This document shows positions 1,151-59,463 of a stretch of DNA of 64,000 bases, piece after piece. Positions within the stretch are counted from its first letter, which is position 1. Every line of letters starts with the position of its first letter. The notes below the pieces were generated by a model that made no database searches, was not told where the DNA came from, and saw only the letters and a program-made list of their open reading frames with translations. The position numbers were made by a program, and so were the translations under genes. The DNA is from Plumapathes pennacea (taxonomy: Eukaryota; Cnidaria; Anthozoa; Antipatharia; Myriopathidae), in the NCBI GenBank assembly GCA_964036295.1, contig OZ038464.1, forward strand, positions 14,494,001 through 14,558,000, read 5' to 3'.

Positions 1151-2269
1151 ATGTCAAGTCTGACTGTTTCCCTTAGAAGTTCTCCTGAAAAGACCAACGG
1201 TGCAAAGTTAAGCCGACTTATTATAGACGGTGGGAGAACAGCACTTCAGAAAGCGTTTGACAGTATCCAGCCCCCAGGGACATTGCAAGCGACCCTCAAC
1301 AGCCACCACAGCACTCTTCTCGCACTCCATAAGAAGAGGATACTGAACAAAACACAGTGGAAACTTCTGTTTCCGCCAAGTGGAGCAGCACCTCAATCCA
1401 ATAAATTTGACATAACGTTGCTGTTTGTCCTTCTCCGAAACATTTGTGGACTTAGTCCCCCAGCATGTGGATGGGACAGCAAACCGTCTTTGACTGATAC
1501 ATCATGGGAAGCTAATTTGGCGCGGATTAAATGGTTCAGAAACGAGGTTTATGGCCATGTAACATCAACAGGAATCGATGCTGGTTTATTCAACGCGCAC
1601 TGGGCTGAGTTGTCAAACGCTCTGGTTCAACTCGGTCTTGACCGCACGGAGATCGATCGTCTGAAGAATTCGCCTCTGGATGAAGACTGTTACCTAAACC
1701 TGCTGTCGGAATGGAAGATCCAGGACGACAGCATCAAACAGCAGCTTCAAGAACTAAAGAAGTTGGAGGAACTGAAGAAGCTTGATGAACTAAAGAAGCT
1801 TGAGGAACTGAAGAAACTTGACGAACTGAAGAAGCTTGATGAACTAAAGAAGCTTGACGAACTGAAGAAGCTGGAGGAACTGAAGAAGCTTGACGAACTG
1901 AAGAAGCTGGAGGAACTGAAGAAGCTTGATGAACTAAAGAAGCTTGACGAACTGAAGAAGCTGGAGGAACTGAAGAAGCTTGATGAACTAAAGAAGCTTG
2001 AGGAACTGAAGAAACTTGACGAACTGAAGAAGCTTGATGAACTAAAGAAGCTTGACGAACTGAAGAAGCTGGAGGAACTGAAGAAGCTTGACGAACTGAA
2101 GAAGCTGGAGGAACTGAAGAAGCTTGATGAACTAAAGAAGCTTGACGAACTGAAGAAGCTGGAGGAACTGAAGAAGCTTGATGAACTAAAGAAGCTTGAC
2201 GAACTGAAGAAGCTGGAGGAACTGAAAAAGCTTGATCTACTGGAGAAGCTTGATGTTTTACGGCCAAAA
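1151..2269 (+). CDS. Exon: DZIP3-type HEPN domain plus hexapeptide-repeat helix
   Basis: 373 codons from an ATG with A at -3. Residues about 15-185 match the DZIP3-like HEPN family that is expanded in cnidarians. Recognisable blocks are KKRILNKTQWKLLFP (61-75), FDITLLFVLLRNICGLSPP (86-104) and RIKWFRNEVYGH (125-136). R130 and H136 form the R-N-x4-H signature of catalytically competent HEPN RNases, so metal-independent RNA cleavage is possible; DZIP3-type HEPNs may also act in binding or dimerisation. Residues about 201-361 are the KKLDEL hexad repeat. The frame runs on to a TGA at 2324, but GTAAGC after codon 373 is a good donor in phase 0 and matches the kinase exon. No signal peptide or membrane segment is seen. 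Confidence 0.75.
1751..2235 (+). repeat. 18-bp coding minisatellite with a 198-bp higher-order repeat
   Basis: About 27 tandem copies of an 18-base unit (GAACTGAAGAAGCTTGAC and variants) encode ELKKLD or ELKKLE. The E/D choice follows an 11-unit pattern, E D E D D D E D E D D, that occurs twice and then partly a third time. The nucleotide variants repeat at the same 198-bp spacing (GAACTAAAGAAGCTTGAG near 1787 and 1985), so blocks of 11 units were duplicated. Leucine falls at every third residue, not in the 3-4 spacing of a canonical coiled coil. The product should be a long, strongly helical, charged rod. Confidence 0.9.
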
Positions 2270-3048
2270 GTAAGCATAGAAATACATCTCGTAGATACAA
2301 ATAGACTATTACATAAAAGTTACTGAGTTAGACAGTGTCCATTTCAATAATTGAACAATATGGTTCTAATGCATGCAGTAACAGTAAAAGCTTTGAAAGA
2401 CGAATGTTCTCAGAAAAATGTGAGACAATCGTCGTTGTGCTACTGCACGGCGGTACATCAACGTTTGAACCGCTTTGATACCCCAACGGGCTCATTTATA
2501 CTCGTCTTCATATTATCCCTTTGAGTCACCCTCACCTAAATTCTACACCCCTAGCACCGTCGTTCTCATCCTGCATATTGTATTGTTTAAGAAAGTGTAG
2601 ATGAATGAGGGGCTTTTAAAACCTGGGCGGGGCTTATAACCGGAGGACATTTCTGTTAGCAGATGACGGGCAGGGGGGGGTCTATCCTGTTTAGTGTTTT
2701 GAAGAGTAGAGACTTGTGCGGATGAGGTTTTGTGTCTTAATTATTTTAACGGCTTTCAGTCGTCATGCAACATCACTAAAAGAAATTGTTGTGCAACTTT
2801 AACCACTTAAACTGCAAAAAGAGGAAAAACTATTATGACGTGTTTATAGTCTTTATAGTCTCCTGCCGACTTTTTATTTTGGTTTCTAATTATTGTTGTT
2901 TTTTCGTGTATCAACTGAGTAATTTCGAGCAACACTTCTAATCCAAAATGGTTCTGTGCAGCAGCGTGCGGTTAAATATGTTAATTTTGTGAGCACTTTA
3001 TTGTGGAAACATGGGCTTCTCATTGGTCGAGAAATTTGATCTAAATAA
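2270..3048 (+). other. Intron sequence 5' of a Helitron
   Basis: It follows the GTAAGC donor and runs to the Helitron 5' end. No coding potential, palindrome or polyadenylation signal was recognised. The base before the element is A, as expected for a Helitron target. Confidence 0.45.
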
Positions 3049-3296
3049 TCCCCGAACGAAGTGAGGGAAATACTCACGACGCTAACGCAGTAGTATTATC
3101 GCCTTATCGGAGACTCCAAACGGGTCGCCATCTCGAAATCTAATGTTCGTCTGTCAGTCTGTCGTGCGACCTCGTCCCCAGTTCCTATCGCGTCGCTGCA
3201 GAACCAATAACAAAGGCCGGATCGATCACGTGTGGCCCTGTAGTTTTACTCGCAATTGAACGAAGCAACTACAGTATCGTAGCTGTGTTCACGAAA

Positions 3297-8807: not shown

Positions 8808-8811
8808 GGCG
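8808..8811 (+). repeat. Target-site duplication GGCG (right)
   Basis: Right copy of the 4-bp duplication bounding the foldback element. The Helitron protein frame resumes after it with GCCAGCGTGGG. Confidence 0.85.
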
Positions 8812-11413: not shown

Positions 11414-12223
11414 AATGAAGGATTTATCGGTGATATCGAATGTCGTGAAGATGAAGCACGTGTGATTGGCAAGGGAAGCAAAGGCACTCTAGTGTATTCA
11501 GGAAAGTTTTTACCTTCTGACCAGAGTGTAGCTGTCAAACGGATGTTCGCTGGAATGTTTGACCTGAGAGAAGCCAAGCGACTGAGACAGCTGCAACACC
11601 CAAACATAATCCAGTGCTTTGCAGTTGAGAAGAGAGGTGACTTCATCTATTTGGCACTAGAGCTCTGCAAAAAAACACTGAGAAATTGCATGGATGAGAA
11701 CGACTTTATTAGGAAGGAGAGTGGCGTTGAGAGGCTTAAGTGCCTGAAGGAAATCACCGCAGCGGTAGAATACCTGCACAAACGTAAAATCTGTCATCGT
11801 GACATCAAACCGGACAACATACTAATGTCAGTCTCGGATCCCAAGCGGTTTGTTTTGGCCGACTTCAACACTTCGAAAGAAGTAAGCTCGACTGAGTCAG
11901 CCTCAACGCAATTTGGTAGTGCTGTTGGAACCACCGGTTACATTGCGCCTGAGGTGTACAGGCCTGGTGAAACAGTAACTGTCAAGGCTGATATATTTTC
12001 ACTTGGATGTGTATTTTATTATACTCTAACAGGCAAAAGTCATCCCTTTGGTTCAGTACAACATTTGAAACGATGCCAAGCAAATATCAATAGTGGTCAG
12101 GATCCAACTCTTAAGGAGGCTGAATTCCTTGAGCACACCTGGACCAGATACATAATTACAGCAATGATTTTGATTCATCCTGATAAGCGGCCAAATGCTA
12201 CAGATGTCATGGAAGCTCTCGAG
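11414..12223 (+). CDS. Exon: IRE1/RNase L-like protein kinase domain
   Basis: 270 codons, phase 0 at both ends. In exon numbering: glycine loop GKGSKG (19-24), VAVK lysine (42), ELCKKTL hinge region, HRDIKPDN (128-135), DFN where kinases have DFG (150-152), APE (178-180) and DIFSLGCVFYY in helix F. The spacing and the motifs ELC..TL and DIFS.GCVFYY..G.SHPFG place it with IRE1 and RNase L. The catalytic K, HRD aspartate and Mg-binding D are kept, so nucleotide binding is likely; the DFG glycine is lost, as in RNase L, and kinase activity is uncertain. The IRE1-type KEN nuclease does not follow: the next exons are low-complexity linkers. The exon is complete, from an acceptor (TTTTAG) to a donor (GAG|GTATTA). 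Confidence 0.88.
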
Positions 12224-12394: not shown

Positions 12395-12467
12395 AAACCA
12401 GGAGATAGTTTCGAGATGCTCAAAAATAGATTACAAACAGTGGCAAAGGAAAGGAGCACTACGACAG
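12395..12467 (+). CDS. Exon: linker 1 after the kinase
   Basis: 73 nt, phase 0 to 1. It follows TTCTCGACACCAG and ends ACGACAG|GTAGCG. It encodes KPGDSFEMLKNRLQTVAKER and STTT, probably the helical tail of the kinase C-lobe. It sets phase 1 for all later joins. Confidence 0.65.
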
Positions 12468-12895: not shown

Positions 12896-12994
12896 GAGAT
12901 GGTTTCACGACGAACAATGACGTGAAATTTCCTACAAGAGTCGAAGAGAAACGAAGCACTCTAGGAGTAGCGGGACGAATCTCAGCTAGGATCG
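12896..12994 (+). CDS. Exon: linker 2
   Basis: 99 nt, phase 1-1. The upstream tract is pyrimidine-rich, with an AAG|G acceptor, and the donor is ATCG|GTAAGG. It encodes GDGFTTNNDVKFPTRVEEKR and STLGVAGRISARI. Polar and probably disordered. No domain is recognised. Confidence 0.6.
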
Positions 12995-14553: not shown

Positions 14554-14631
14554 CCGGGATTTTCAAGAAAGATCAGCGAGCTGAGCCGGGAGAAGGTTTA
14601 GCAACAGCTTACCAGGACAATGCCCGTGTCG
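14554..14631 (+). CDS. Exon: linker 3 (copy 1)
   Basis: 78 nt, phase 1-1, acceptor CTCTCCTCTTCAG and donor GTCG|GTGAGG. It encodes AGIFKKDQRAEPGEGLATAY then QDNARV. In phase it can splice directly to any ankyrin exon, giving a glycine at the junction. A duplicate at 35626-35712 has three extra codons. Confidence 0.65.
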
Positions 14632-14843: not shown

Positions 14844-17273
14844 TTACGAGATGGCAGCATGAATATAAGAGTGCTGTTGATAAGTGTTTACAAAAGTCCC
14901 CTCGCAGCAAGTTACAGCAAAAAAAATTAAACGTATTAAAATATGACAAAGTGTTCGCTGTACCACCCGCCTGGATTTCAGTTTCAAAAAGTTGTCACCA
15001 TCCTTCTCAGCGAAATCAATGTGTATCCGCTGCCATATTCGGGTAGGCCATCTCCATGGGTACAATGGTGCCCTTGGGGCTGCTTTCTGTACTGACTGGC
15101 ACACCTCACAGCTTTTCACCTTCAGCTCAATCTCAGCATCCAACTTAGGCCACCAAATATAGCTTCGAGCGATGGATTTCATAGCAACAATCCCTGGATG
15201 TTCCTCATGTAGCTCTTCTAACAGCCTGGTCCTTAACGCTGGTGGAATGATGACCCGCATTCCCCAAAGGATACATCCTTGCTCTGCGGTTAGCTCATGC
15301 CTTCGTGTGAAGTATGGCTTCAGTTCCTCATCAGATACTGCATTAGGCCATCCCGCAAGGGTGTAATTCAATACCCTTGCTAACACTGGATCCTTCCTGG
15401 TGTATCCGCTAATGTCCCTGGCGTCAACTGGTAGTTCCTCAAGGCCTGAGAAGAACAAGATTTCAGCCTCTTCCTTCATGGGTTTGGTGTCACAAGGAAG
15501 GCGTGACAGTGCATCGGCGTTTCCATGTTCAGTTGATGCTCGGTATTCCACCTGGTAATTGTATGCCTGCAAAATCACCGCCCAGCGTTGCATCCTTGCA
15601 GCTGCTAGAGTTGGCACTGCTGTCTTGGGTCCCAGAATGGTCAATAAGGGTTTGTGGTCTGTCAATAGCTGGAACTTGCGCCCATACAAGTACTTGTGGA
15701 ACTTCCTGACTCCAAATATGATTCCTAGGGCCTCTTTCTCGATCTGAGAATAGTTCCTTTTGCTCTTGGTGAGAGTTCTTGATACAAAAGCAATGGGGCG
15801 TTCTTCCCCATTATCCATGGTATGAGATAGGACTGCTCCTACCCCATATGGGGATGCGTCACATGCTAGAATCAGCTTCCTGTTTTCGTCGTACGGAACA
15901 AGTACTTGGCTGGCTAGAAGCTCCGACTTGCTCTTCTTGAAGGTCTCTTCACATGCATCTGTCCATGCCCACTTAACTCCCTTATGGAATAGTTCATGCA
16001 ATGGCTGTAGCACGGTGGAGAGATTGGCTATGAAGTTCCCATAGTAGTTGAGCAATCCCAAAGAGGAACGAAGTTCTGCTAGGTTCTTTGGACTTGGAGC
16101 TTCCACGATAGCTGCAATCTTCTCAGTGAGAGGATGACGACCTTCTCCGTCTACGCGGTACCCCAGGTACTCTACACTTGGTACCATGAATTCACACTTG
16201 GACCACTTGGCCAGGATGCCCTGTTTCTCCAGCCTGGTCAACACCTCATCTAATACTTGCAAGTGTTCATGGGGTTCCGTTCTGATCAATATGTCGTCAA
16301 TCCTGCAGCGTACTTTGTCCATTCCCAGCAATATCTGGTCCATCGTTGACTGGAAGAGTGCTGGAGCAGAGGCTATACCATAGGTCAACCGCTGATAGGC
16401 ATATAATCCCTTGTGAGTGTTCACCGTGAGGTACTGTTGGCTCTCAGGGCCCAATTCCATCTGCTGATATGCGTTGGACAAGTCAATCTTGCTGAACACC
16501 GTTCCGCTTCCAAATGTGGCAAATAGATCTTCAGTGTCTGGTAAGGGGTATGGGTTGTCGAGAAGCACGCGGTTTACTGACACCTTGAAATCACCACAGA
16601 TGCGTGTGCTTCCATCTTTCTTGGGTACGCATACGATTGGAGATGCCCAGTCACTGCGTTCCACCCTCTTGACCACTCCTTGGCTCTCCAGTCGGTTTAA
16701 TTCTTCTTCAACTTTAGGGCGTAGGGCGTAGGGTACTGGCCGAGCCTTACAGAATATTGGCTTGGCACCATCTTGCAATTTAATCTCCGCTTTGAAACCT
16801 TTAATGGTGCCCAGTCCTTTGCTGAACACGTTTTTGTGTCTATCTAACACATCCGACAAGGTTTCAATCTTGCTCACTTGGAAAATGTTGTGCCAATTCA
16901 GCTTGAGGCTCTCTAACCAATTTCGCCCAAGAAGTGCAGGCCCATCTCCTTCCACTACGATCAATGGCAGTACCATTTCCTGTTGCTCAGATGTCACGGT
17001 AAGATGCACTTCTCCATATACCAGAATCTGCGCTCCACTATAGGCCTTTAGTTTGATCCTGCTACGTTTCAAAGGATGGTGGCTAAACTGCTTGTCGTAC
17101 AAGGTCTTGGACATGATTGACACTGTGGCTCCTGTATCCAGCTGCATCTGACAGTGCTGTCCATCCAACTTTACTGACATGCAAATGGGTGTTTGTCCAC
17201 CCTTTTCAGAACTCCTGGTTGTAAAGATGCCTAGCACATCTTCCTCCTCAGTGTCATCGACGTCTTCTTCCAC
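14844..17273 (-). pseudogene. Gypsy pol: protease, RT, RNase H, partial integrase
   Basis: Of 809 codons, protease LDTGA is at about 45-49. RT runs about 200-380, with VPKKDGSTRICGDF and the active site as RIDD (324-327), where most Gypsy RTs have an aromatic residue before x-D-D. RNase H has D472, E512 and D539. The integrase zinc finger is H689, H692, C722 and C725, and the first core aspartate lies in RIHIDF (about 753). After about residue 762 the sequence is unrelated and ends at a stop, so the core's other two acidic residues are lost. The frame is -1 relative to gag and stays open upstream of the GTG at 17273, consistent with gag-pol frameshifting. Confidence 0.85.
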
Positions 17274-18106: not shown

Positions 18107-18418
18107 TCCTCGTTATGTTCCTCGTTATATCCTCGTCGCTCAGCTGTGCTTCTGTTTCTGGCAAAGTGCAACAAAATATAAGCAAATGAGCGAGCGTTCA
18201 GCAGGAACACTGCTTTTGGCGTTGGTACAAGAAGATCAAAAGGGGGTTTTACCTTCGAGCAAAATCATCAAAATCAAAATATATGTTAATACATCACTAT
18301 AAAAATATGGTAAATAGCACATTTTGGTTAAAGATACACGTATTCTAAATATTCTGATGAGAGAGTTATTGCAGATTGGTTTTTCGAGAATTACAGATTT
18401 CCACAGGATAGTAGGTGA

Positions 18419-20262: not shown

Positions 20263-20264
20263 TT

Positions 20265-43913: not shown

Positions 43914-44111
43914 GTGCTGATATTCATGCTGTTGACTTACTCGGTCGGAACGCCCTTCACTATGCGTGTGAGTCTGATGATGTGGCGACGATACAATTGT
44001 TTTTGGACAAAGGATTTAAGATTGAGTGCGTTGACAATAATGGTGCCACCCCACTGCTGCTTGCAGCGCTAGAAGGCCATGCGAACACTGTAACTTTCCT
44101 GCTGTCAAAAG
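43914..44111 (+). CDS. Ankyrin exon 2-2 (alpha)
   Basis: 198 nt, phase 1-1. GADIHAVDLLGRN, DNNGATPLL, ALEGHAN. Confidence 0.82.
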
Positions 44112-45233: not shown

Positions 45234-45431
45234 GTGCTGATCTTCATGCTGTTGGGTTGTTCAGTATGAACGCCCTTCACTATGCGTCTGAGTCTGATGA
45301 TGTGGCGACGATACAATTGTTTTTGGACAAAGGATTTAAGATTGAGTGCGTTGACAATAATGGTGCCACCCCACTGCTGCTTGCAGCGCTAAAAGGCCAT
45401 GCGAACACTGTAACTTTCATGCTGTCAAAAG
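45234..45431 (+). CDS. Ankyrin exon 2-3 (beta)
   Basis: 198 nt, phase 1-1. HAVGLFSMNALHYASESDD, VTFMLSKG. The cysteine common in ALHYAC is serine here. Confidence 0.82.
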
Positions 45432-45866
45432 GTAATGGGTCCATCTAAGCGAGTGTTGCAAGTCAAAAGAGTTATTGTCGTTTTACGTCAGTTGGATAGA
45501 AGTTTGTCGTTTTGGAGGTCCAAAATACCGGTAAACCGTGGCGATTAAATCACTTTTAATATTTTGACGTTTTTGAGCAGGTTTGTGTCGATTTCTGGAT
45601 TAAAAGACATGATGGTTTCGTTATTAAAAAGCCCAGTGGTGTCAACATCCTGGTGTAACGTAGTGCCACTTATGCAGAGGCGGGACGAAACTTGGGATAT
45701 TAAGATATTCGACGATATATAGTTCGGCGACATAGACCAAAAGAGACTGAGGAGCGTGACACCTCGACTTGTGACCAAGACTTTCACATTTCGAGGCTTA
45801 GCGAAGAGAAACAAATAAAATAAAACACCTAATATAAGAGTAATCTACTCATGCTTGGAACAGCTA

Positions 45867-46109
45867 CAATCCCGGACAAAATGTGTTGACACATGCTTTA
45901 AATGTCGTACTTTTGTCAGAACTACCATGCTGTGAGTCACGAGTTCCGAAGAAAACTGCTTTTAATTACCCCCTCCCCCGTATCAATGTTGTAGCTTGAA
46001 TTTGGAAGAGTTCCGGTAAGACTTTGACGGAAAATCGTTGCTAAATAATTAATTTATCAACATTGAATGGGGGGAGGGGGGAATGTGTCAACACTTTTGT
46101 CCAATATTG
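45867..46109. mobile_element. TA-target MITE
   Basis: 243 bp, flanked by TA on both sides (45865-45866, 46110-46111). Ends CAATCCCGGACAAAATGTG and CACTTTTGTCCAATATTG pair with a few mismatches. The empty site CAGCTAGGTTCAGAG is present in the equivalent beta unit near 51840. The internal C-run and G-run arms make it a relative of the MITE at 40677. Probably mobilised by a Tc1/mariner-type transposase. Confidence 0.85.
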
Positions 46110-46799
46110 TAGGTTCAACGTGTTATAAAATTTTGCTGTCGTCAATTAATGTATATCCCTAAAAAGGAAACCCTCGAGAAGTAACAGTTTATGAATTATA
46201 GTAGGATACTAAAAGCCATCATGAGCGGGATTTGGCGCTATTAATAAATTGCTGTGAGAAGTGCTTTTTTAGCTTACTAGATACGGAGTCGTAACTGCTA
46301 CTGATCCTACTTAATCCTTTTTTTTTCTGTTTGATATTATTTTAACCACTTGGGACTTTAAGTGAGAAGATAGAATACGCGCTATTAGAAAGGAGCAGGG
46401 GAAAGTAAAGAAGGAATTATTTAGCCACTTTTACAGTCATGAGAAGTAGCTCATAAGACTTTTTGATTTCCGTTAACGACTGCTTTTGAACATGAAGTAA
46501 ATCTTTATTCTTAGCTAAAATTTTTGTCGAATTGAGCGGATGTCCCGACTCTGCCTGGCAAGTTTGATTGTCAAGTGGCCCGCCAAAATATCTCAGCCTC
46601 GCCAACGGCGCATGAGTGTGAACGTGGTTTTTTAAAACCTCCTATAATACCAAAAGAAATATTATGAGTTAAACAAACCTTCACCAACCAGCGATGTAGT
46701 TTTAGAAATTCTAAGATTAAGGCTGTTTTACCAGAATCCAGCCTCTTACGCAATGAACGTGAGTTCACATTAAAGTTAATTACTTTGCTTTTATTCAAG

Positions 46800-46997
46800 G
46801 TGCTGATATTCATGCTGTTGACTTACTCGGTCGGAACGCCCTTCACTATGCGTGTGAGTCTGATGATGTGGCGACGATACAATTGTTTTTGGACAAAGGA
46901 TTTAAGATTGAGTGCGTTGATAAGAATGGTGCCACCCCACTGCTGCTTGTAGCGCTAGAAGGCCATGCGAATACTGTAACTTTCCTGCTTTCAAAAG
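46800..46997 (+). CDS. Ankyrin exon 2-4 (alpha)
   Basis: 198 nt, phase 1-1. GADIHAVDLLGRN as in 2-2, DKNGATPLLLVALEGHAN. Confidence 0.82.
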
Positions 46998-47188
46998 GTA
47001 ATGGGTCCATCTAAGCGAGTGTTGCAAGTCAAAAGGGTTATTGTCGTTGTACGTCAGTTGGATAGATATTTGTCGTTTTGGAGGTCCAAAATACCGGTAA
47101 ACCGTGCATTAGATCACTTCCAATATTGTGAAGTTTTTGAGCAGATTGGCGATTTCTGGATTAAAAAATATGGTGATTTTGTTATTAA

Positions 47189-48958
47189 CTAGACTGGCCT
47201 TGCCAGTGAGCTCGCGGCGTGAGTTGGGTCGAGACCAGACTATAAAATGGAAAGTAGGGGACAAGAGCGGAACTCCCAAGAGAGACTTCCAATTTCTCAC
47301 CATAAAAATATCACACAGTATAGAGAACTTGGCTTTTGACACCTTGCTCTTTTGACACCTTGATTAAACTAAAAATTATTATTACAACACTCATACATTT
47401 GCTTCTTAAAGGTTGAGCGACCCTGCATCTTGAGAATGCGTGACATATCTTTTTATGCACAATCGATTATGACAGTTTGACCTTGACTCATATTTCTAAT
47501 CAGAGGCCACGATTAATCCAGCCTTCGCTTTACTACTTATGTGTTTTCTTTTGTTAACTCAATACGTTTCTTCTATCAGGCTTTCGAGTATTCGTGCTCT
47601 GTAACAAATATAAAATTGACAGCGAGGAATGTCACACGAGAGATGTTTACAATATTATTGCGCTTTTGTTCACAGTGTGTTCAGTCCATTTGTGACTGCA
47701 AACTCAATCCTCAGAATTATTTCGGTGTATTTTTCATTTCTGGTATTTAATGAACATTGCGAAACAAAGACTACATCATCGAATGAAAGAAACACTTCAA
47801 CAGGCAATGTACGATACGCAGAAGAATTTTATGAGGCAACAGCTGTCATGTACAAAGTAAAGCAGAAAGCGTCATTGTTTTACGGCTAAAGCTCACCGTA
47901 GCTTTGGTTTCTATTTTCGCCCTGTTATCTTCCCAAAAGTATTTCGTGTCGCCACAGAAAGTTTCGTCGGGACTAAATACTTATCGGCGACAGAGATATT
48001 TGCAATACCCCAGAAGTACCATCAAACATTTGTTTACGGCTATTCTCAAAGCTTGTGCGGTGAACGCGAGCCAAAATCTTTTCCTAAAATCCAGTTTATC
48101 CGTGCGTATTCCACAGAGCCAGATGGCGTTGAATTTGAATGGATACAGTTTACTTTTTCGCTTCACTACTTATGTGTTTTCTTTTATTAACTCAATACGT
48201 TTCTTTCTATCAGGCTTTCGAGTATTCGTGCTCTGTAACAAATATAAAATTGACAGCGAGGAATGTCACACGAGAGATGTTTACAATATTATTGCGCTTT
48301 TGTTCACAGTGTGTTCAGTCCATTTGTGACTGCAAACTCAATCCTCAGAATTATTTTGGTGTATTTTTTCATTTCTGGTATTCACTGACCATTGCGAAAC
48401 AAAGCTTACATGATCGAATGAAAGAAACACTTCAACAGGCAATGTACGATACGCAGAAGAATTTTATGAGGCAGCAGATGTCATGTACAGAGTAAAGCAT
48501 AAAGCGTCATTGTTTTACGGCTAAAGCTCACCGTAGCTTTGGTTTCTGTTTTCGCCCTGTTATCTTCCCAAAAGTATTTCGTGTCGCCACAGAAAGTTTC
48601 GTCGGGACTAAAGATTTATCGGCGACAGCGGTACCATCAAATATTTGTTTACGGCTATTCTCTAAGCTTCCGCGGTGAACGCGAGCCAAAATCGTTCCCG
48701 AAAATCCAGTTTATCCGTGCTTATTCCACAGAGCCAAATGGTGTTGAGTTTGGATGGGATGCAGTTAACTTTTACACACAAGTAACGAGCAATTCACTGG
48801 CCACATCTCGAGTTGTTTAGCGAAGTCAATTACGTCATCGCCCAGCACGTGATAATATGAACCAATCACCGTGTGCTGATTCTCGACCCACAAAAAGGAA
48901 AAAAATAAAATAAAAATTCCCATTTTTAAGCTCTCGTGGGCCCCAGGCCCCCGCGAGC
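47189..48958 (-). mobile_element. Helitron-like element, family B copy 2 (minus strand)
   Basis: The reverse complement of family B: it starts CTAGACTGGCCTTGCCAGT (3' end) and finishes GGGCCCCAGGCCCCCGCGAGC (5' hairpin). The empty site GTTATTAAAAAGCCCAGTGG is seen in other units. About 600 bp is repeated inside (47541-47889 and 48139-48500 regions), so the gene fragment occurs twice, the better copy at 47981-48166 on the minus strand (IWLCGIRTDKLDFRKRFWLA). Confidence 0.75.
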
Positions 48959-49889
48959 AAAAAGCCCAGTGGTATCAACATCCTGGTGTAACGTAGCGCC
49001 ACTGATGCAGAGCCGGGACTGAACTTGGGGTATTAAGATATTCGACATATATAGTTCGGCGACATAGACCAAAAGAGACTGAGGAACGTGACGCCTCGAC
49101 TTGTGACCAAGACTTTCACATTTCGAGGCTTAGCGAAGAGAAAAAAAAATAAAATAAAACACCTAATATAGGAGCAACCTACTCATGCTTGGAACAGCTA
49201 GGTTCAGAGTGTTATAAAATTTTGCTGTCGTCAATTAATGTACATCCCTAAAAAGGAAACCCTCGAGAAGTAAGAGTTTATGAATTATAGTAGGATACTA
49301 AAAGCCATCATGAGCGGGATTTGGCGCTTTTAATAAATCGCTGTGAGAAGTGCTTTTTTTAGCTTACTAGATACGGAGTCGTAACTGCTACTGATTCTAC
49401 TTAATCCTTCTTTTTTTCTGTTTGATATTATTTTAACCGCTGCTGACTTTGAGTGAGAAGGTGGAATACGCGCTATTAGAAAGGAGCAGGGGAAAGTAAA
49501 GAAGGAATTATTTGGCTACTTTTACAGTCATGAGAAGTAGCTAATAAGACTTTTTGATTCCATTAACGACTACTTTTGAACATGAAGTAAATCTTTATTC
49601 TGAGATAAAATTTTTGTCGAATTGAGCGGATGTCCCGACCCTGCCTGGCAAGTTTGATTGTCAAGTGGCCCGCCAAAATATCTCAGCCTCGCCAACGGCG
49701 CATGAGTGTGAACGTGGTTTTTTTAAACCTCCTATAATACCAAAAGAAATATTATGAGTTAAACAAACCTTCACCAACCGGTGATGTAGTTTTAGAAATA
49801 CTAAGATTAAGGCTGTTTTACCAGAATCCAGCCTCTTACGCAATGAATGTGAGTTCACATTAAAATTAATTACTTTGCTTTTATTCAAG

Positions 49890-50087
49890 GTGCTGATCTT
49901 CATGCTGTTGACTTACTCGGTCGGAACGCCCTTCACTATGCGTGTGAGTCTGATGATGTGGCGACGATACAATTGTTTTTGGACAAAGGATTTAAGATTG
50001 AGTGCGTTGACAAGAAAGGTAGCACCCCACTGCTGCTTGCAGCGCTAAAAGGCCATGCGAACACTGTAACTTTCCTGCTGTCAAAAG
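49890..50087 (+). CDS. Ankyrin exon 2-5 (alpha)
   Basis: 198 nt, phase 1-1. DLLGRN, DKKGSTPLLLAALKGHAN. Confidence 0.82.
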
Positions 50088-51210
50088 GTAATGGGTCCAT
50101 CTAAGCGAGTGTTGCAAGTCAAAGAGTTATTGTCGTTGTACGTCAATTGGTTAGAAATTTGTCGTTTTGGAGGACCAAAATACCGGTAAACCGTGCATTA
50201 GATCACTTCCAATATTGTGAAGTTTTTGAGCAGATTGGCGATTTCTGGATTAAAAAATATGGTGTTTTTGTTATTAAAAAGCCCAGTGGTGTCAACATCC
50301 TGGTGTAACGTAGTGCCACTTATGCAGAGCTGGGACTGAACTTGGGGTATTAAGATATTCGACGATATATAGTTTGGCGACATAGACCAAAAGAGACTGA
50401 GGAGCGTGACGCCTCGACTTGTGACCAAGACTTTCACATTTCGAGGCTTAGCGAAGAGAAAAAAATAAAATAAAACACCTAACATAGGAGCAACCTACTC
50501 ATGCTTAGAACAGCTAGGTTCAGATTGTTATAAAATTTTGCTGTCGTCAATTAATGTACATCCCTTAAAAGAAAACCCTCGAGAAGTAAGAGTTTATGAA
50601 TTATAGTAGGATACTAAAAGCCATCATGAGCGGGATTTGGCGCTATTAATAAATCGCTGTGAGAAGTGCTTTTTTTAGCTTACTAGATACGGAGTCGTAA
50701 CTGCTACTGATCCTACTTAATCCCTTTTTTTTTTTTTCTGTTTGATATTATTTTAACCGCTGCTGACTTTGAGTGAGAAGGTGGAATACGCGCTATTAGA
50801 AAGGAGCAGGGGAAAGTAAAGAAGGAATTATTTAGCCACTTTTACAGTCATGAGAAGTAGCTCATAAGACTTTTTGATTTCCGTTAACGACTGCTTTTGA
50901 ACATGAAGTAAATCTTTATTCTGAGATAAAATTTTTGTCGAATTGAGCGGATGTCCCGACTCTGCCTGGCAAGTTTGATTGTCAAGTGGCCCGCCAAAAT
51001 ATCTCCGCCTCGCCAACGGCGCATGAGTGTGAACGTGGTTTTTTTAAACCTTCTATAATACCAAAAGAAATATTATGAGTTAAAGAAATCTTCACCAACC
51101 GGCGATGGAGTTTTAGAAATTCTAAGATTAAGGCTGTTTTACCAGAATCTAGCTTCTTACGCAATGAATGTGAGTTCATATTAAAGTTAATTACTTTGCT
51201 TTTATTAAAG

Positions 51211-51408
51211 GTGCTGATCTTCATGCTGTTGGGTTGTTCGGTATGAACGCCCTTCACTATGCGTGTGAGTCTGATAATGTGGCGACGATACAATTGTTTT
51301 TGGACAAAGGATTTAAGATTGAGTGCGTTGACAATAATGGTGCCACCCCACTGCTGCTTGCAGCGCTAAAAGGCCATGCGAACGCTGTAACTTTCATGCT
51401 GTCAAAAG
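51211..51408 (+). CDS. Ankyrin exon 2-6 (beta)
   Basis: 198 nt, phase 1-1, acceptor TTATTAAAG (variant). HAVGLFGMN, ESDNVATIQ, GHANAVTFMLSKG. The beta intron with GGCGATTAAATCAC follows. Confidence 0.82.
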
Positions 51409-52504
51409 GTAATGGGTCCATCTAAGCGAGTGTTGCAAGTCAAAAGAGTTATTGTCGTTTTACGTCAGTTGGATAGAAATTTGTCGTTTTGGAGGTCCAA
51501 AATACCGGTAAACCGTGGCGATTAAATCACTTTTAATATTTTGACGTTTTTGAGCGGGTTTTTGTTAATTTCTGGATTAAAAGACATGATAGTTTCGTTA
51601 TTAAAAAGCCCAGTGGTGTCAACATCCTGGTGTAACGTAGTGCCACTTATGTAGAGGCGGCACTAAACTTGGGATATTAAGATATTCGACGATATATAGT
51701 TCGGCGACATAGACCAAAAGAGACTGAGGAGCGTGACACCTCGACTTGTGACCAAGACTTTCACATTTCGAGGCTTAGCGAAGAGAAAAAAATAAAATAA
51801 AACACCTAATATAAGAGTAATCTACTCATGCTTGGAACAGCTAGGTTCAGAGTGTTATAAAATTTTGCTGTCGTCAATTAATTAATGTATTTCCCTAAAA
51901 AGGAAACCCTCGAGAAGTAACAGTTTATGAATTATAGTAGGATACTAAAAGAGCCATCATGAGCGGGATTTGGCGCTAAACATAAATCGCTGCGAGAAGT
52001 ACTTTTTTAGCTTACTAGATACGGAGTCATAATTGTTTGATATTATTTTAACCGCTGTTGACTTTAAGTGAGAAGATTGAATACTCACTATTAGAAAGGA
52101 GCAGAGAAAAGTAAAGAAGGAATTATTTAGCCACTTTTACAGTCATGAGAAGTTGCTCATAAGACTTTTTGATTTCCGTTAACGACTGCTTTTGAACATG
52201 AAGTAAATCTTTATTCTGAGTTAAAATTTTTGTCGAATTGAGCGGATGTCCCGACTCTGCCTGGCAAGTTTGCTTGTCAAGTGGCCCGCCAAAATATCTC
52301 AGCCTCGCCAACGGCGCATGAGTGTGAACGTGGTTTTTTAAACCTCCTATAATACCAAAAGAAATATTATGAGTTAATCAAACCTTCACCAACCAGCGAT
52401 GTAGTTTTAGAAATACTAAGATTAAGGCTGTTTTACCAGAATCCAGCCTCTTACGCAATGAATGTGAGTTCACATTAAAGTTAATTACTTTGCTTTCATT
52501 CAAG

Positions 52505-52702
52505 GTGCTGATCTTCATGCTGTTGACTTACTCGGTCGGAACGCCCTTCACTATGCGTGGGAGTCTGATGATGTGGTGACGATACAATTGTTTTTGGACA
52601 AAGGATTTAAGATTGAGTGCGTTGATAAGAATGGTGCCACCCCACTGCTGCTTGCAGCGCTAAAAGGCCATGCGAACACTGTAACTTTCCTGCTGTCAAA
52701 AG
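52505..52702 (+). CDS. Ankyrin exon 2-7 (alpha)
   Basis: 198 nt, phase 1-1. ALHYAWESDDVVTIQ: tryptophan replaces the usual cysteine. Confidence 0.82.
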
Positions 52703-52969
52703 GTAATGGGTCCATCTAAGCGAGTGTTGCAAGTCAAAAGGGTTATTGTCGTTGTACGTCAGTTGGATAGAAATTTGTCATTTTGGAGGTCCAAAATACC
52801 GGTAAACCGTGCATTAGATCACTTCTAATATTGTGACGTTTTTGAGCTGATTGGCGATTTCTGGATTAAAAAATATGGTGTTTTTGTTATTAAAAAGCCC
52901 AGTGGTGTCAACATCCTGGTGTAACGTAGTGCCACTTATGCAGAGCCGGGACTGAACTTGGGGTATTAA

Positions 52970-55900
52970 GAGCGGGTTGCTGTAAATATCGACTACTGGT
53001 ATGCAAGATAGAAAAATCCGATTTTCTCAAACTTTGCCATATTAAAGGCCAAAAATCATACAAGAAGAATTTGCTGTACAACTCTCGCATTCATGCTTTG
53101 AAGATCTACAGTTAAATAGGTTAAAGAATCATGATGTAAAAGCTTTTTGCAACAAGCTTGTGGTTGTCAATCATAAAATGGCCGCCCCGGATGTGATGTC
53201 ATGGAAAAATGGCGCGAGAGACTGGCAACTCACTGCAGCAATAAATTCATTAAAAAAATTTTTTTTTTCCTCTTCTTCAACTAGACTGCTGACAAGTTTT
53301 TGTTCAATGTACATTTTCGCACGTGTGCAGGCGGCTAGCAGGTTACTTGTCACCATGTTCTGGTCCCTAGTTTTGCATTGCGCATCTTTAGTGCGCATAA
53401 CACTTTTGAGATGGTGGACATTGAGAACCACTGAAATTTCAAGATCGAAAGTTTTTTTACACTCTTTACGCAAATAAGTTTTATTTTTCATTGTTCCTTG
53501 TGGGAGCAGCCACCTTGAAAGTTGAAAGTCGTCCCAGTCCCCTCTCGGAAAGACGTATTTTGAAGTGAATATTCGCCTTTTCCTGACAAATGCGCAAAAA
53601 CGAGCACGGTGACCCCCTTTTTTATTACAAAATTTTAATAAGAACAGTGTCCCCAGTAAAACAGGAAAAAATAGGCAGAAATCTATGAGCAGATTTTGCG
53701 CAGTTGAAAGAAATGCTACGGATTGGGCCACTTTTGGTTGAAGATAGCACATCAACTTCCCACCAATTTTGTTGTTAAAATAGATTTGCTATTCACATAC
53801 GTTTTTCTGTGACATAGATGAATAGTCAATAGAATAAAGTTGAAAGTTTGGTGATATTTCAGACTGCATTGAAAATCATCGACCTTATTTCCCAGTATCG
53901 GGGTGCGCAAAACAGGCGCTAGAACATCATAATTCGTCAGCTTGTGCCGTAAAAACGAACACGGCGGCCCCTTGTTTTTATTGCATCATTGTGACTCACT
54001 TGAGTTGTTGTACAATCGTGCCAAGTTTCATTACAGATCTATGACAGATTCTTTTTCTAGGGAATCACCTCAAGCAATGCACAGCGTTGTCGCAACACCT
54101 ACCATACGGTGCTTTATTTTGCAGCGGACAGCTTTGGAGACACTCCGCAAATATAAACGTTGCTGCAAATATAGAGCCGTGTTCGCATGTCTGTCGAAAG
54201 TAATTGTTTGATTGCTTTGGTTTTGCGTTTGCTACACTTTCCAATTGGTCCAAACACTGTAGTTTAGCAACATTCTTGGCCAATCAAGGACGAAAGCAAA
54301 ACCTGGTTGCGATATTCTCACGCGAGAAAGCAAATGACGATCGCGTGTTCTCGCCCTACTGATTGGTTAGTAAAACCAATCGCAATTATTTGGTCACTAA
54401 CTTATCAACTTCCTAAAAAAACGGCGTTACGTTTCTTTTTCTCTCTAATATAATGGTACTAGAAATACGATGATTGCAGATATCCCCTCGCTTTGTAGTG
54501 ACTTTTGGTAAGCGGAATTCTTGTCTATTTTCCGCTCGGATGTTATTGCTCGTTTTTACAAACCATAGTTGCATAGCGAAGTCACCAGTCGGCCGGAAAA
54601 AAATGTTTGTCGCAGGGCAGTCTGGTTTAGTTCAGACAACGTGCCGTGGTGCGTTTTCAAGTTTTCGTGTACAAGTAGTAAACTCAACTTTCTACACCAA
54701 CTACAGAATACATCCAAGACTGTCTAAGGAAAGTGTAATTAGAATCGCGACTCTATCAGTTTTGCACAGTAAAGGAAAAGTCGCTCTTCGACACCGATTC
54801 TTTATTATTATTACTTTAACAGAAGCCGCGATTGTTCCAGCCAACGCTGCGTCCTAACCAAATACGTGCTGTTTCTTCTTTTTTTTTTTTTTTAATAAAT
54901 CACGTTTCTTCGAGTTAATGTCTCAGTCACACGATTTAAGACGATTTAAGATAACGGGCACCTGGCGGAAAAAATGATCTTGCACGAAGGCACTCTGAAA
55001 TAGCTCAAAATTTAGCGAAATGTTCTATATATATGTATATAATCCTACTTGGCCTTCATCACAGTTTCGGAGCATGTTAAAATACACAACTGAAAAGACG
55101 TTTGCAGTTATTATACTGTATGCCTACTGTAATTATTAAACTCAACGGTTCCTGATAGTCTTAGTTTTTAGTTATTTTCCAGCAAATCCAGCAAAACCTC
55201 AAACGTTATCGTCTACGTTATCCCTTCAGTGATTTCGAAATGTAGAGCGGCCCCCATACGGTACGAAAATTCAAAATTCAAATTTTAGATAGGCCGAGGG
55301 GCGCTAATTCGAAGGGGGCGTTCATTCGATAGGGTGGGGCATGTATTGTTCAAAACCGTATAGTTCTAGTAGCAACACTGAAAGTCATCTAACATCGTTT
55401 ATTGGAGGATTTGCCATTTGAGCAAAACCATCGACTATATAAAGGGGGAGGCGCTTATTTCAAATTTCTGAGAAGGAGGGCTTATCCGAGGAATTACGGG
55501 GAATTTTTTTTGCTGCAATGAGTTTTCTCGCACCATTTCCATGACATCACATCCGGGGCGGCCATTTTTTGATTGACAACCACATTGCATAGCAAGTTGG
55601 ATAAAGTTCCCAAGCTTGTTGCAAAAAGCTTTTACATCATGATTGTTTAACATATTTAACTGTAGACCTTCAAAGCATGAATGCGAGAGTTGTGCAGTAA
55701 ATTTTTCTTGTATGATCTCGGTTAATCGTTAACTTTGCAACCGCTAAACGCCGCGGCTGGGACGAATTCGACATGACAGCTGCACCTTCTGCGACAACAG
55801 TGGCTGCATTTACCGGCCGGAAATAGCTTTTTACGGTAAGATGTATCAGATAGTGTCCAGCTTTTTGGTATTTGATCCACTTTTTTACGATTTGTACGTT

Positions 55901-56674
55901 TAACCGGACAGAAGCGATTATGTTGTGATGGATTAGTGTCGCTGAGAAAATGTAAATTAGGGTAAGTTTCAAAATAAACGTCTGTAGATCCACACAAACG
56001 CGAGTTTTAGTTCCAGGGGTTTGAAACACCCTTGATATTCGTTTTGTCGTGATTTAAAGCGGAAATTATAAACATATTGGAACGTCCGACCGCTAATTTC
56101 CGATAAAGTCAAAGATCAAAGAATGCGTTGTTTTGGTCACGTAACCCGACTTCAAACCGTTCCCGAAATCCGCCATTTAATTTACCCCAATTTTTTATTT
56201 GCTATATGTTTAGTTCAAGGGATGGTCCTTCCCTGGGGTAAATTCTCAGTGGTCGAAGCGATGAACCAGAGTGCGATTTTTGGCTTTGAATTGACCTATA
56301 TTTTAAGGTCAGGCATCACTGTCACGGTCATGAATTTTACAAATTTACCAAAAATTCAGGCTTCGGTAACACTGCAATCTGACAGCACTAGTTAACAGAG
56401 GAGAGATATTGTTTACTTTGTAGGACTCAATTTTCTGTAAAACGGTCTTTACCATCGTGAGGGAGCTTTCGAAAAACTTGGTATTTTAGTGTTGAATTTG
56501 CCAAATTCCACGCGCGAACACAAAAAAATTCACCAAAAATAGATAAAGAATCAAAACAACCTCGGACCTATATTTTTGGTAATAGTTACTGAAGGCCTTT
56601 AATATGGCAAAGTTTGAGAAAATCGGATTTTTCTATCTTGCATACCTATAGTCGATATTTACAGCAACCCGCTC
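52970..56674. mobile_element. TTAA-target DNA transposon, non-autonomous, 3.7 kb
   Basis: Flanked by TTAA at 52966-52969 and 56675-56678; the empty site GGTATTAAGATATTCGACG is present in the other units. The inverted ends begin GAGCGGGTTGCTGTAAATAT. The left 52970-53215 pairs with the right in two blocks (56590-56674 and 55517-55715), because about 870 bp interrupts the right arm. TTAA duplication is the piggyBac hallmark, though the ends do not begin with CCC. No transposase was recognised. A minus-strand Helitron fragment sits inside. Confidence 0.82.
54459..55090 (-). mobile_element. Family A Helitron fragment (minus strand), nested in TTAA element
   Basis: CTAGAAATACGATGATTGCA with A before CTAG is the reverse complement of the family A 3' end. 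The following 600 bases mirror the 3' part of the Helitron at 57070-58801, including the shared GTCTGGTTTAGTTCAGACAA. No 5' TCCCCGAACG end was found, so it is truncated. Confidence 0.75.
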
Positions 56675-57069
56675 TTAAGATATTCGACGATATATAGTTC
56701 GGCGACATAGACCAAAAGAGACTGAGGAGCGTGACGCCTCGACTTGTGACCAAGACTTTCACATTTCGAGGCTTAGCGAAGAGAAAAAATTAAAATAAAA
56801 CACCTAATATAGGAGCAACCTACTCATGCTTGGAACAGCTAGGTTCAGAGTGTTATAAAATTTTGCTGTCGTCAATTAATGTACATCCCTAAAAAGAAAA
56901 CCCTCGAGAAGTAACAGTTTATGAATTATAGTAGGATACTAAAAGCCATCATGAGCGGGATTTGGCGCTATTAATAAATCGCTGTGAGAAGTGCTTTTTT
57001 TAGCTTACTAGATACGGAGTCGTAACTGCTACTGATCCTACTTAATCCTTCTTTTTTTTTTTTGTTTGA

Positions 57070-58801
57070 TCCCCGAACGAAGTGAGGGAAATATTCACGA
57101 CGCTAATGCAGTAGTATTATCGCCTTATCGGAGACTCCAAGCGTGTCGCCATCTCGAAATCTAATGTTCGTGTGTTTGTCTGTTTGTGCCATACGACCTC
57201 GTCCCAAGGCCCTCCGCGTCGAGCGAACACAGCAGGCGAGGTTACATCGGCAGCTTAACTGTAAACCGCCATTTTCTTGGAGACATGCGATAGAGTACGA
57301 ACTGAAGTGATTTTGTACAACAAGATGCAGATACAAGGCCAAGCAGTTCGACGGACGGCTGTAAATTGCCCGGATATTTTGCCAGTGCATGGGAGGCAAG
57401 CTTTACTAGACGTAAAACGGATTCTTTAAGGCCCAACTGGTTGACCTGAACACTAATCCCAGACGCCAGTATTGTGTTAAAACGCAGACACTTCTTCAGA
57501 AAGGAATAGCAAAATACAGTCGGTGGAAATCGAACAATCACTGTTGCAAATTTCGCCTTTCGCAATAACAGGAATGCAGTTTTCAGAATCCAAGTTTGAC
57601 AAGATGACAACACAATACAATGGAAAGTGGAATTTTCGTACTGTATGAGGACTGCTCTATACGGTGTATTTTGAAATCATTGAAGACGTAAACAATAGTG
57701 TTTTGGGTTTTGTTTCCTTTGCTGGAAAAGAGCTAAAGCTATGGCTTTCAGGAACCGGTGAGTTTTGAAAATTTACATCAATTAACGTTAAATACACTTT
57801 TGTTAAACGACGGTCGTGTTATCATTGGTATTTCAACAATTGCCGTATATTTTGTCGTTTGATGCCCCGGGAACTGTGATGAAGGCCAAGTAGGATTATA
57901 CTGTGATCTTTTCGCTGGTTTTCAAAGCTATTTTTAAAATGCCTTCGTGCAAGATTGTGTCATCCGATTCCTGACATGTTTGCATAATTTCATTGACAGT
58001 CTGACACATGCTGTGAAGTTTTGTCGCCGCGTTTGTTGGCACACTGATAAAATGTAACCGGGTTAAAATGCTTTTGCTTTTTGAAGGCTATTAAAGTAGA
58101 AAATATCCGGCCACTGCTTTCCAAATTAAACAATATGTCTACTAGCGGGACCCCCGTAAGATACTCACTCAACACAATCGGACTTTGTATTATTTAGTGA
58201 CCGGGTTTCCTCGCTCAATAAAATCGGACCTTGTATTATTTAGTGACTTGATTTCTTTTTTCTGTCAAAGATTTTAAAATCGTCAAACGCAGTTTGAAAA
58301 GTTGTTGTGTTCAAAATTGAATCCCTGCCAAAATTCACACGATTCCGAGACTTCGAAAGCGTGTAAACAAGCGACTCGCTTTTACGGTTCTAAATTTGGC
58401 ACACACGCAAAAAAACAAACATACACGTATGTGGTTAGGATAAAGCATTGGCTGGAGAAATCGCGGCTTTTCTTGAAATTCATAAAAACTTCGGTGTCCA
58501 AGATCGACTTTGCTTGGCTTTCAAGCCTCGGGAGTATTCTGTAGTTGCGTGTAAATGTTTTCTCAGCGAATTTTGAAGTTCAGCTAGTGTCTACGAAAAT
58601 TGCAGACTGTGCACGTTGTCTGAACTAAACCAGACTGCCGTGTGACAAAGATTTTTTTAGCGGCCGACTGGTGACGTCGCTACACAGCCGTGGTTTGCTG
58701 AAAAAAAATTAAATAATGTCCGAACGGAAAATAAACAAGAATCCCGCTTTCCGAAAACCCACTACTGAGCGAGGGGATATCTGCGATTATCGTATTTCTA
58801 G
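57070..58801 (+). mobile_element. Helitron, family A copy 2, in array 2
   Basis: 1732 bp, TCCCCGAACGAAGTGAGG to TATTTCTAG, inserted between A and T: flanks TTTGTTTGA and TATTATTTT join to the empty site TTTGATATTATTTTAACC of other units. It lacks the Helitron protein segment of copies 1 and 3. No gene was recognised inside, so it is non-autonomous. Confidence 0.9.
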
Positions 58802-59265
58802 TATTATTTTAACCGCTGCTGACTTTGAGTGAGAAGGTGGAATACGCGCTATTAGAAAGGAGCAGGGAAAAGTAAAGAAGGAATTATTTGGCCACTTTTA
58901 CAGTCATGAGAAGTAGCTAATAAGACTTTTTGATTTCATTAACGACTACTTTTGAACATGAAGTAAATCTTTATTCTGAGATAAAATTTTTGTCGAATTG
59001 AGCGGATGTCCCGACTCTGCCTGGCAAGCTTGATTGTCAAGTGGCCCGCCAAAATATCTCAGCCTCGCCAACGGCGCATGAGTGTGAACGTGGTTTTTTT
59101 AAACCTCCTATAATACCAAAAGAAATATTATGAGTTAAACAAACCTTCACCAACCGGTGATGTAGTTTTAGAAATACTAAGATTAAGGCTGTTTTACCAG
59201 AATCCAGCCTCTTACGCAATGAATGTGAGTTCACATTAAAGTTAATTACTTTGCTTTTATTCAAG

Positions 59266-59463
59266 GTGCTGATCTTCATGCTGTTGACTTACTCGGTCGG
59301 AACGCCCTTCACTATGCGTGTGAGTCTGATGATGTGGCGACGATACAATTGTTTTTGGACAAAGGATTTAAGATTGAGTGCGTTGACAAGGATGGTGCCA
59401 CCCCACTGCTGCTTGCAGCGCTAAAAGGCCATGCGAATACTGTAACTTTCCTGTTGTCAAAAG
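59266..59463 (+). CDS. Ankyrin exon 2-8 (alpha)
   Basis: 198 nt, phase 1-1. DLLGRN, DKDGATPLLLAALKGHAN. The last ankyrin exon in the window; the unit after it is cut off near 60280. Confidence 0.82.

Follow-up and report, generated by a model that had tools for sequence, protein, structure and literature searches.

A multi-copy coral gene family that looks like an immune sensor on RNase L logic, with its predicted domains in the opposite order

The coral Plumapathes pennacea carries copies of a multi-copy anthozoan family whose HEPN, IRE1-like kinase and ankyrin domains very probably form the architecture of one gene family. We analyzed one copy within a window of 64,000 nucleotides (positions 14,494,001 to 14,558,000 of contig OZ038464.1), together with its paralogs. 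We judge it about two-thirds probable (roughly 0.66) that the family is a diversified intracellular receptor, in which ankyrins would serve as the sensor, the IRE1-like kinase as the switch, and the N-terminal HEPN domain as an RNase.

Layout and state of the window copy

The initial annotation placed a HEPN domain, a rod of hexads, an IRE1/RNase L-like kinase, linkers and ankyrins on one strand, and both Pfam matches and exon mapping agree. In window coordinates, the features are:

1151..2269, + strand: exon 1, with the start codon, HEPN_DZIP3 (∼1274-1687) and the rod; phase-0 donor at 2270
1538..1558, + strand: RNEVYGH, the Rx4-6H RNase motif of HEPN
1743..2253, + strand: 18-bp minisatellite encoding (LKKLEE/LKKLDE)n; a pattern count gives 26 hexads
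11414..12223, + strand: IRE1-like kinase exon, phase 0/0; VAVK, HRD and the D of DFN present
12395..12467, + strand: linker exon L1, phase 0 in and 1 out; splice sites as in three paralogs, length change in frame
12896..12994, + strand: linker exon L2, phase 1/1, from splice phase and paralog comparison
14554..14631, + strand: linker exon L3, phase 1/1, from splice phase and paralog comparison
14844..18112, − strand: LTR-retrotransposon ORFs (RT, RNase H, integrase, gag zinc knuckle)
21862..31673, + strand: ankyrin array A, eight exons of 198 bp (starts 21862, 23178, 24501, 25827, 27152, 28653, 30153 and 31476)
32286..32441, + strand: remnant of a T1-type ankyrin exon, its 5' part absent relative to the paralog
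32954..33157, + strand: T2-type exon that ends the ankyrins of array A; splice borders are our reading
35626..35712, + strand: second L3 exon, the start of a headless partial duplicate (array B)
36693..37019, + strand: open frame of the "FSEKP" exon, with which the ankyrins begin in fetched paralogs
41461..59463, + strand: ankyrin array B, eight exons of 198 bp (starts 41461, 43914, 45234, 46800, 49890, 51211, 52505 and 59266)

The junction phases proposed earlier were reproduced: 0/0 at 2269/11414 and at 12223/12395, and phase 1 thereafter. All 16 array exons (21862-59463) are exactly 198 bp, in phase 1/1, with two repeats each; Ank models were confirmed on 2 of the 16 and on the FSEKP exon. 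The gene runs on to end ∼4 kb past the window edge, with its terminal ankyrin exon at ∼67667 and its stop exon at ∼68044 when the window numbering is continued.

The window copy is a mosaic: the second L3 exon (35626) and the FSEKP exon (36693) mark the array from ∼34.8 kb on as a partial tandem duplicate without a head, and this rearrangement makes the exact transcript of the window copy uncertain. One alternative, with odds of roughly one in three, is that the family is real and the window copy a decaying mosaic, either a pseudogene or able to encode only a shortened protein. Such decay would fit the retrotransposon ORFs, which occupy the region holding the FSEKP exon in paralogs, as well as the broken T1 exon, a headless array B, and an array A that lacks its usual first ankyrin exon and has no recognizable stop exon behind its T2 exon. 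It would also fit the rod, whose expansion to 26 hexads is peculiar to the window copy (14 paralogs have 0 to 5), a comparison that rules out the rod as a conserved functional spacer. Decay is harder to reconcile with the HEPN, kinase, linker and 16 array exons, which contain no stops and retain intact splice dinucleotides, or with dN/dS ratios below 1 for HEPN and kinase; moreover, because L2, L3 and the array exons are all phase 1/1, gain or loss of any of them preserves the frame. For L2 and L3, pN/pS values of 2.0 and 2.7 reflect very few changes and lend no support to coding; the case for coding is made by their splice sites and by length changes that keep the frame. A PADLOC methyltransferase match in the rod was taken as low complexity and set aside.

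The HEPN and kinase domains

The window HEPN domain scored 171.5 bits against Pfam PF18738 (HEPN_DZIP3), for which the curated cutoff is 27. The Rx4-6H motif, described in PMC3710099 as the mostly conserved RNase motif of HEPN domains, is present in all 18 family HEPN exons examined, including copies only ∼37% identical to the window HEPN. Comparisons with the window copy gave HEPN dN/dS ratios of 0.07 to 0.65 (13 of 17 pairs computable). A ColabFold model of the HEPN domain (pLDDT 74.8) gave no real PDB match: Foldseek returned 58 matches, the best with an E value of 2.0, and sequence searches found no PDB chain below an E value of 0.7. The HEPN assignment rests on Pfam.

The kinase exon scored 143.9 bits against Pkinase, and its best solved relatives are IRE1 structures (147 bits; next class, 81 bits). 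VAVK/IAVK, HRD and LAD motifs occur in 16 of 16 kinases, and all 16 keep the active-site Lys, the HRD Asp and the DFG Asp; this retention of K and both D residues rules out a pseudokinase through loss of catalytic residues. The DFG glycine, on the other hand, is replaced in every one, giving DFN, DCN or DFS. Against the window copy, kinase dN/dS was 0.11 to 0.33 in 15 of 15 pairs; one close kinase pair gave 1.39, from six changes only. A conserved acceptor, and no start codon, marks the beginning of the exon; a separate start codon was among the refuting observations named in the initial annotation.

That annotation also reported no KEN domain after the kinase. We searched open frames of ≥20 amino acids from the window and from loci L001-L033 and detected none, the lowest E values being 3.1 and 0.15. 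With a complete KEN protein as control, the E value was 4e-19; the search employed a local KEN model, which a KEN domain divided among short exons could escape. In the kinase tree, KEN-bearing IRE1s cluster (91/90) separately from the HEPN-kinase family kinases, while the tree leaves unsettled whether all family kinases form a single clade. Relatives in ENA sequences, among the 120 matches listed of 3,832, share 63 to 74% identity with the kinase, and three of them sit among the paralogs on the tree. PADLOC matches to the kinase spanned several defense families and were set aside.

These residues also bear on whether the kinase itself is the effector, with HEPN only an RNA binder or scaffold and signaling by phosphorylation instead of RNA decay. 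Motif-less HEPN domains that are probably only RNA binding are on record (PMC3710099), and the kept catalytic residues would suit such a role; however, the occurrence of Rx4-6H in every HEPN exon examined, even those with ∼37% identity, and the universal replacement of the DFG glycine argue against it, and we consider it unlikely, at about one chance in four. A mechanism in which HEPN cuts RNA has, in our estimate, slightly better than even odds.

Diversification of the ankyrin exons

The ankyrin exons are homogenized inside arrays and hypervariable at ten codons predicted to contact ligand (8, 9, 11, 19, 20, 41, 42, 44, 52 and 53 of the 65-aa exon unit). Identity is 91 to 99% within array A, as it is among its 1.3-kb units, 89 to 97% within array B, and 83 to 88% between A and B. 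Mean entropy is 1.68 bits at contact codons versus 0.49 at others (permutation p<1e-5; 30 exons, two others of different length being excluded). Tree-based dN/dS is 1.85 at contact codons versus 0.77 elsewhere (Fisher p 0.016; 28 exons, a misaligned T1 exon and a duplicate having been dropped). Relative to intron divergence, pN at contact codons is 4.3 for array A, 1.3 for array B and 2.7 for A versus B; the corresponding values at other codons are 0.40, 0.23 and 0.51.

Concerted repeats with an excess of replacements on the predicted binding face are the pattern of diversifying repeat receptors of the fungal-NLR type. In Podospora, the ANK repeats of NLRs have high internal identity and turn over, and their concave face is under positive selection (PMC4986451). 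The coral family resembles them in high internal repeat identity and apparent selection on the binding face, but Podospora NLRs have a NACHT switch and other effectors.

Contact positions in ankyrins at large are under loose constraint. Relaxed constraint, instead of selection for new binding, could account for variable contact codons here; the tree-based excess is by itself weak (binomial p 0.045), synonymous differences are raised at contact codons too, and array B exceeds its introns only slightly (1.3). Still, replacement divergence at contact codons is 4.3 times that of flanking introns in array A and 2.7 times between arrays. Relaxed constraint by itself is not expected to yield such an excess, and we put this explanation at only about one chance in five. 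A receptor with a diversifying ankyrin sensor is, on the pattern of codon changes, the probable reading, and the initial annotation's division into sensor, switch and effector is consistent with that selection pattern.

Recurrence, related systems and significance

The pairing of HEPN and kinase recurs on five contigs. Among 22 strong HEPN exons, 21 have the same kinase behind them in the same orientation and no more than 10 kb away (match distances, 311 to 9,673 bp; only matches of at least 200 bits counted, for HEPN and kinase alike); the one on C11 has no kinase behind it. On C3, 14 of 14 HEPN exons are paired, whereas 10,000 draws under the null averaged 1.8 and never exceeded 8. Two further HEPN matches on C10, of ∼102 bits, likewise precede kinases. 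Of 38 strong kinase matches, 17 lack a strong HEPN in the 10 kb before them, or 15 if the ∼102-bit HEPNs are counted; for two others of the 17, no HEPN was found in the 8 kb upstream that were examined. In 15 of 17 loci, a phase-0 donor candidate follows HEPN at the corresponding position; in L013 and L014 the clearest candidate is phase 1.

The C5 copy, the sole strong kinase match on its contig, carries on one strand HEPN, kinase, L3, the FSEKP ankyrin exon, five more ankyrin exons and T1. The domain order opposite to that of RNase L, as claimed in the initial annotation, is thus found in paralogs, including one standing alone on another contig. Ankyrin exons after the kinase were seen in the fetched C3 and C5 copies only; the two C10 copies tested have an OTU exon in place of ankyrins. 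A cluster of 1.9 Mb contains 29 strong kinase matches and at least 150 matches to two-repeat ankyrin exons. In the window exons scanned against Pfam, neither NACHT nor NB-ARC appeared. That HEPN, kinase and ankyrin are three adjacent genes, duplicated together and not spliced together, is very improbable: the HEPN-less kinase loci and the 9.1-kb repeat-bearing intron between HEPN and kinase in the window would suit it, but the distances down to 311 bp, the phase-0 donor candidates, the conserved kinase acceptor without a start codon, and the full order retained by C5 outside the cluster speak against it.

RNase L combines ankyrins, an IRE1-type kinase fold and a HEPN-class nuclease in one chain, and its kinase is a member of the IRE1 family (PMC3710099). 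The coral family shares these elements, the kinase fold by sequence, in one predicted chain. It differs in that its ankyrins are C-terminal, whereas those of RNase L are N-terminal; its predicted nuclease is an N-terminal DZIP3-type HEPN instead of a KEN directly after the kinase; and it has tens of paralogs with hypervariable ankyrins. The earlier suggestion that it arose independently of RNase L holds for the HEPN family, which differs from KEN, but less well for the kinase, whose closest relative in sequence is IRE1. From IRE1 itself the coral kinase differs by lacking a detected KEN and by the change of DFG to DFN, DCN or DFS.

Cnidarian NLRs, as described in PMC8260672 and PMC10236652, combine a DZIP3-type HEPN and NACHT with a C-terminal repeat domain and are expanded in anthozoans. 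HEPN family, C-terminal repeats and anthozoan expansion are common to both, but the coral family has an IRE1-like kinase where NLRs have a NACHT switch, and ankyrins in place of LRR, WD40 or TPR. TRADD-N lineage-specific expansions in marine sessile animals pair a constant switch with variable HEPN, ankyrin or kinase domains (PMC8195603); the coral family likewise has a constant switch module with variable domains, but those expansions center on TRADD-N, and a HEPN/IRE1-like kinase/ankyrin chain is absent from the available part of that paper.

The claim of a new architecture holds in part. PMC3710099 had already described HEPN_DZIP3 fused with ankyrin, NACHT, CARD and LRR, and Stylophora LOC111344551 is a predicted protein with HEPN and then ankyrins but no kinase; a chain of HEPN, IRE1-like kinase and ankyrins is not described in the open-access full texts, listings and passages searched. 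Nor did searches of public proteins find the combination: no protein with HEPN_DZIP3 and kinase was among the matches listed for the HEPN-kinase-ankyrin search (120 of 840), the long kinase-linker model (120 of 2,035) or the kinase profile (120 of 3,832). Length windows were applied, and candidates were capped at 7,995 for the first search and 7,990 for the last, so such a protein may have been missed.

The receptor that we favor would be a single chain, translated from a single mRNA. It would start with a DZIP3-type HEPN whose RNase motif is intact and continue into a KEN-less kinase of the IRE1 family; members of the C3/C5 branch would add a long solenoid of ankyrins. The ankyrin array would bind a variable non-self or stress ligand; binding would bring chains together by way of their kinase domains, the switch being phosphorylation or the binding of a nucleotide, and HEPN domains so paired would cut RNA. 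More tentatively, at somewhat under one chance in three, interchangeable two-repeat exons may recombine into new binding surfaces, in the manner of a DARPin library, forming an ankyrin-based recognition repertoire tied to an RNA-decay effector. Alternative splicing would possibly be a further source of such surfaces, and the repertoire would be convergent with RNase L in its parts and with fungal NLRs in its mode of diversification.

RNase L is the textbook fusion of a sensor, a switch and an RNA-cutting effector. The coral family looks like an immune sensor on the same logic in opposite order. If this is true, the same three functions have been rebuilt in reverse, with another nuclease family and in a large cluster, in an early-branching animal, which would show the ease with which RNase L-type logic evolves. 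The domain and codon patterns also point to a receptor class whose recognition part may be under diversifying selection, and this would make germline recognition of many microbes by cnidarians directly testable.

Exons and mosaic structure of the window copy

The window copy reads from a HEPN_DZIP3 exon through a kinase exon and three linker exons (L1, L2, and L3) to 16 ankyrin exons, each exactly 198 bp. Re-examination of the window recovered the splice phases that the initial annotation had stated for its junctions, and its claim that no KEN domain (the nuclease domain of RNase L and IRE1) follows the kinase held up: none was detected in the open frames of the window and fetched loci L001-L033.

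1151-2269, plus strand: exon 1, with the HEPN_DZIP3 domain (171.5 bits)
11414-12223, plus strand: kinase exon, closest in PDB to IRE1
About 67667 (window numbering, past the window's end): T2 terminal ankyrin exon of the second array
About 68044 (same numbering): short exon with stop codon, second array

Against PDB, the kinase scored 147 bits with IRE1 and 81 bits with the next class, calcium-dependent kinases. After HEPN_DZIP3, exon 1 carries an 18-bp minisatellite coding LKKLEE/LKKLDE hexads; this rod is specific to the window copy (26 hexads, versus 0-5 in 14 other copies). A 36-bp minisatellite occurs twice in the HEPN-kinase intron, in opposite orientations (4310-4578 and 7883-8228). An open frame rich in Lys, Arg, and Gln and containing 69-bp tandem repeats recurs at 3144-4016 (a copy with no Pfam match), at 60713-60945, and in locus L033 at about 5345-5665; it resembles a mobile-element fragment.

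The window copy has a mosaic structure. Array A, the first ankyrin array, directly follows L3; the FSEKP exon (the first ankyrin exon in the fetched paralogs) expected there is absent, and its region holds retrotransposon open frames. The T1 ankyrin exon of array A is broken, and a stop-exon region was not found behind the first T2 when two paralogs were compared; it was located only at 68 kb. Beginning at about 34.8 kb, part of the L2-L3 intron, L3, and FSEKP occur a second time, together with a second array (array B); this partial duplicate lacks both HEPN and kinase. Since the exons involved are phase 1/1, a transcript through both arrays would keep its frame. A tRNA-Ser-like gene at 39368-39439 heads a 300-bp block, possibly a tRNA-derived SINE, that shares 88% identity with one lying downstream of the ankyrin exons of the copy on contig C5.

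Pairing of HEPN and kinase across paralogs

Kinase matches of at least 200 bits number 38 in the 290-Mb assembly, 29 of them on C3 at 14.04-15.95 Mb; C3 is the contig of the window, which spans 14,494,001-14,558,000 on it. HEPN matches of at least 200 bits number 22, and 21 of these, on C2, C3, C5, C10, and C11, have a kinase downstream on the same strand within 10 kb (gaps of 311 bp to 9.7 kb); the sole strong HEPN with no kinase behind it lies on C11. Within the C3 cluster, 14 of 14 were paired, versus a mean of 1.8 and a maximum of 8 under random placement in that cluster. Of 17 loci, 15 have a phase-0 donor candidate at the corresponding position after HEPN; the clearest candidate in the other two, L013 and L014, is phase 1. 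Counting against a single-gene reading, 17 of the 38 kinases lack a strong HEPN in the 10 kb upstream; for two of these there is a weaker HEPN match (about 102 bits), and in two others HEPN was absent from the 8 kb fetched upstream. Among the matches listed for the window HEPN, 11 of 120 bear an organism name, all stony corals. Between HEPN and kinase, L014 has a reverse-strand open frame (2014-2592) that matches TRADD-like_N below threshold (19.3 bits; cutoff, 23.7).

The proposed effector (HEPN) and switch (kinase) are both conserved. All 18 HEPN exons examined carry the Rx4-6H motif; 16 of 16 kinases keep the kinase lysine and the HRD and DFG aspartates, with the DFG glycine replaced by Asn or Ser in every one. 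Relative to the window copy, dN/dS was 0.07-0.65 for HEPN, where 13 of 17 pairs could be computed, and 0.11-0.33 for the kinase, where all 15 could; a value of 1.39 came from one close kinase pair with six changes. In a tree of 33 kinases, KEN-bearing IRE1s cluster (91/90) apart from the family. The window type forms one group (99/99) with copies from C2, C3, C5, and C11; three ENA sequences fall inside it, which suggests that the kinase types predate Plumapathes pennacea. The C10 type and the remaining ENA sequences branch off separately, in no supported order.

FSEKP continues the fetched C3 copies (L020 and L022-L028) and the C5 copy, followed by two-repeat ankyrin exons wherever the fetched stretch was long enough. 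One copy, at 15.416 Mb, has both T1 and T2. C5 has a single strong kinase match, and the copy there combines on one strand HEPN, kinase, L3, FSEKP, five more ankyrin exons, and T1. The best 150 of 836 candidate matches to the window ankyrin exon all lie on C3, and the two on the minus strand stand behind a minus-strand HEPN-kinase pair. No ankyrin was seen in the stretch fetched for C2 and C11 copies. Five copies lie on C10; in the two that were tested, the kinase is followed by an OTU-protease exon (60-63 bits) rather than by ankyrins.

C10, about 14.01-14.04 Mb: L010 and L012, HEPN-kinase, then OTU-like cysteine protease exon

With their OTU exons, these paralogs suggest a HEPN-kinase head that can be reused with different tails. 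Further downstream in L010, on the same strand, lies an ApoL-like open frame (32.7 bits).

Ankyrin diversification and the proposed receptor

Contact positions x2, x3, x5, x13, and x14 of the ankyrin repeat, which we take to be those randomised in DARPins, were mapped to ten codons of the ankyrin exon. Mean entropy there was 1.68 bits versus 0.49 elsewhere (p below 1e-5) in an exon set that included one misaligned exon; with that exon left out, parsimony on a 28-exon tree gave dN/dS of 1.85 at contact codons versus 0.77 (Fisher p, 0.016; binomial p, 0.045). With flanking introns as a second yardstick, the ratio of replacement to intron divergence was 4.3 (array A), 1.3 (array B), and 2.7 (between arrays) at the ten contact codons, and 0.40, 0.23, and 0.51, respectively, at other codons. 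Synonymous differences are also elevated at the contact codons, a rise for which we cannot fully account. Units are more alike within arrays (91-99% identity in A, 89-97% in B) than between them (83-88%), a sign of concerted evolution. By these measures the proposed ankyrin sensor is diversifying; fungal NLR ankyrins show similar behaviour (PMC4986451).

The partners of HEPN_DZIP3 enumerated in the accessible part of Anantharaman et al. 2013 (PMC3710099) are TPR, Zn-ribbon, RING, ankyrin, CARD, NACHT, DEATH, and LRR, with no kinase among them. Other papers describe expansions of HEPN combined with NACHT in anthozoans (PMC8260672) and marine expansions around TRADD-N that mix HEPN, ankyrins, or kinases (PMC8195603). 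Among public proteins, P0121 (ENA; 1044 aa) has an LRR region, two IRE1/RNase L-like kinase domains with a DFD motif, and a C-terminal KEN, another unusual receptor-like architecture; P0309 (Daphnia carinata), with an IRE1-like kinase, then ankyrin repeats, and no KEN among its listed domains, is an arthropod case of kinase-ankyrin pairing.

The architecture is best read as an intracellular receptor: the ankyrins would bind a variable ligand, as the selection pattern supports; the kinase would then assemble and switch; and HEPN would cut RNA, as its motif conservation supports. That these steps are coupled we infer from IRE1 and RNase L. Tests for KEN and for N-terminal ankyrins found neither, so the family is no RNase L member, yet on the best reading it would work like RNase L.
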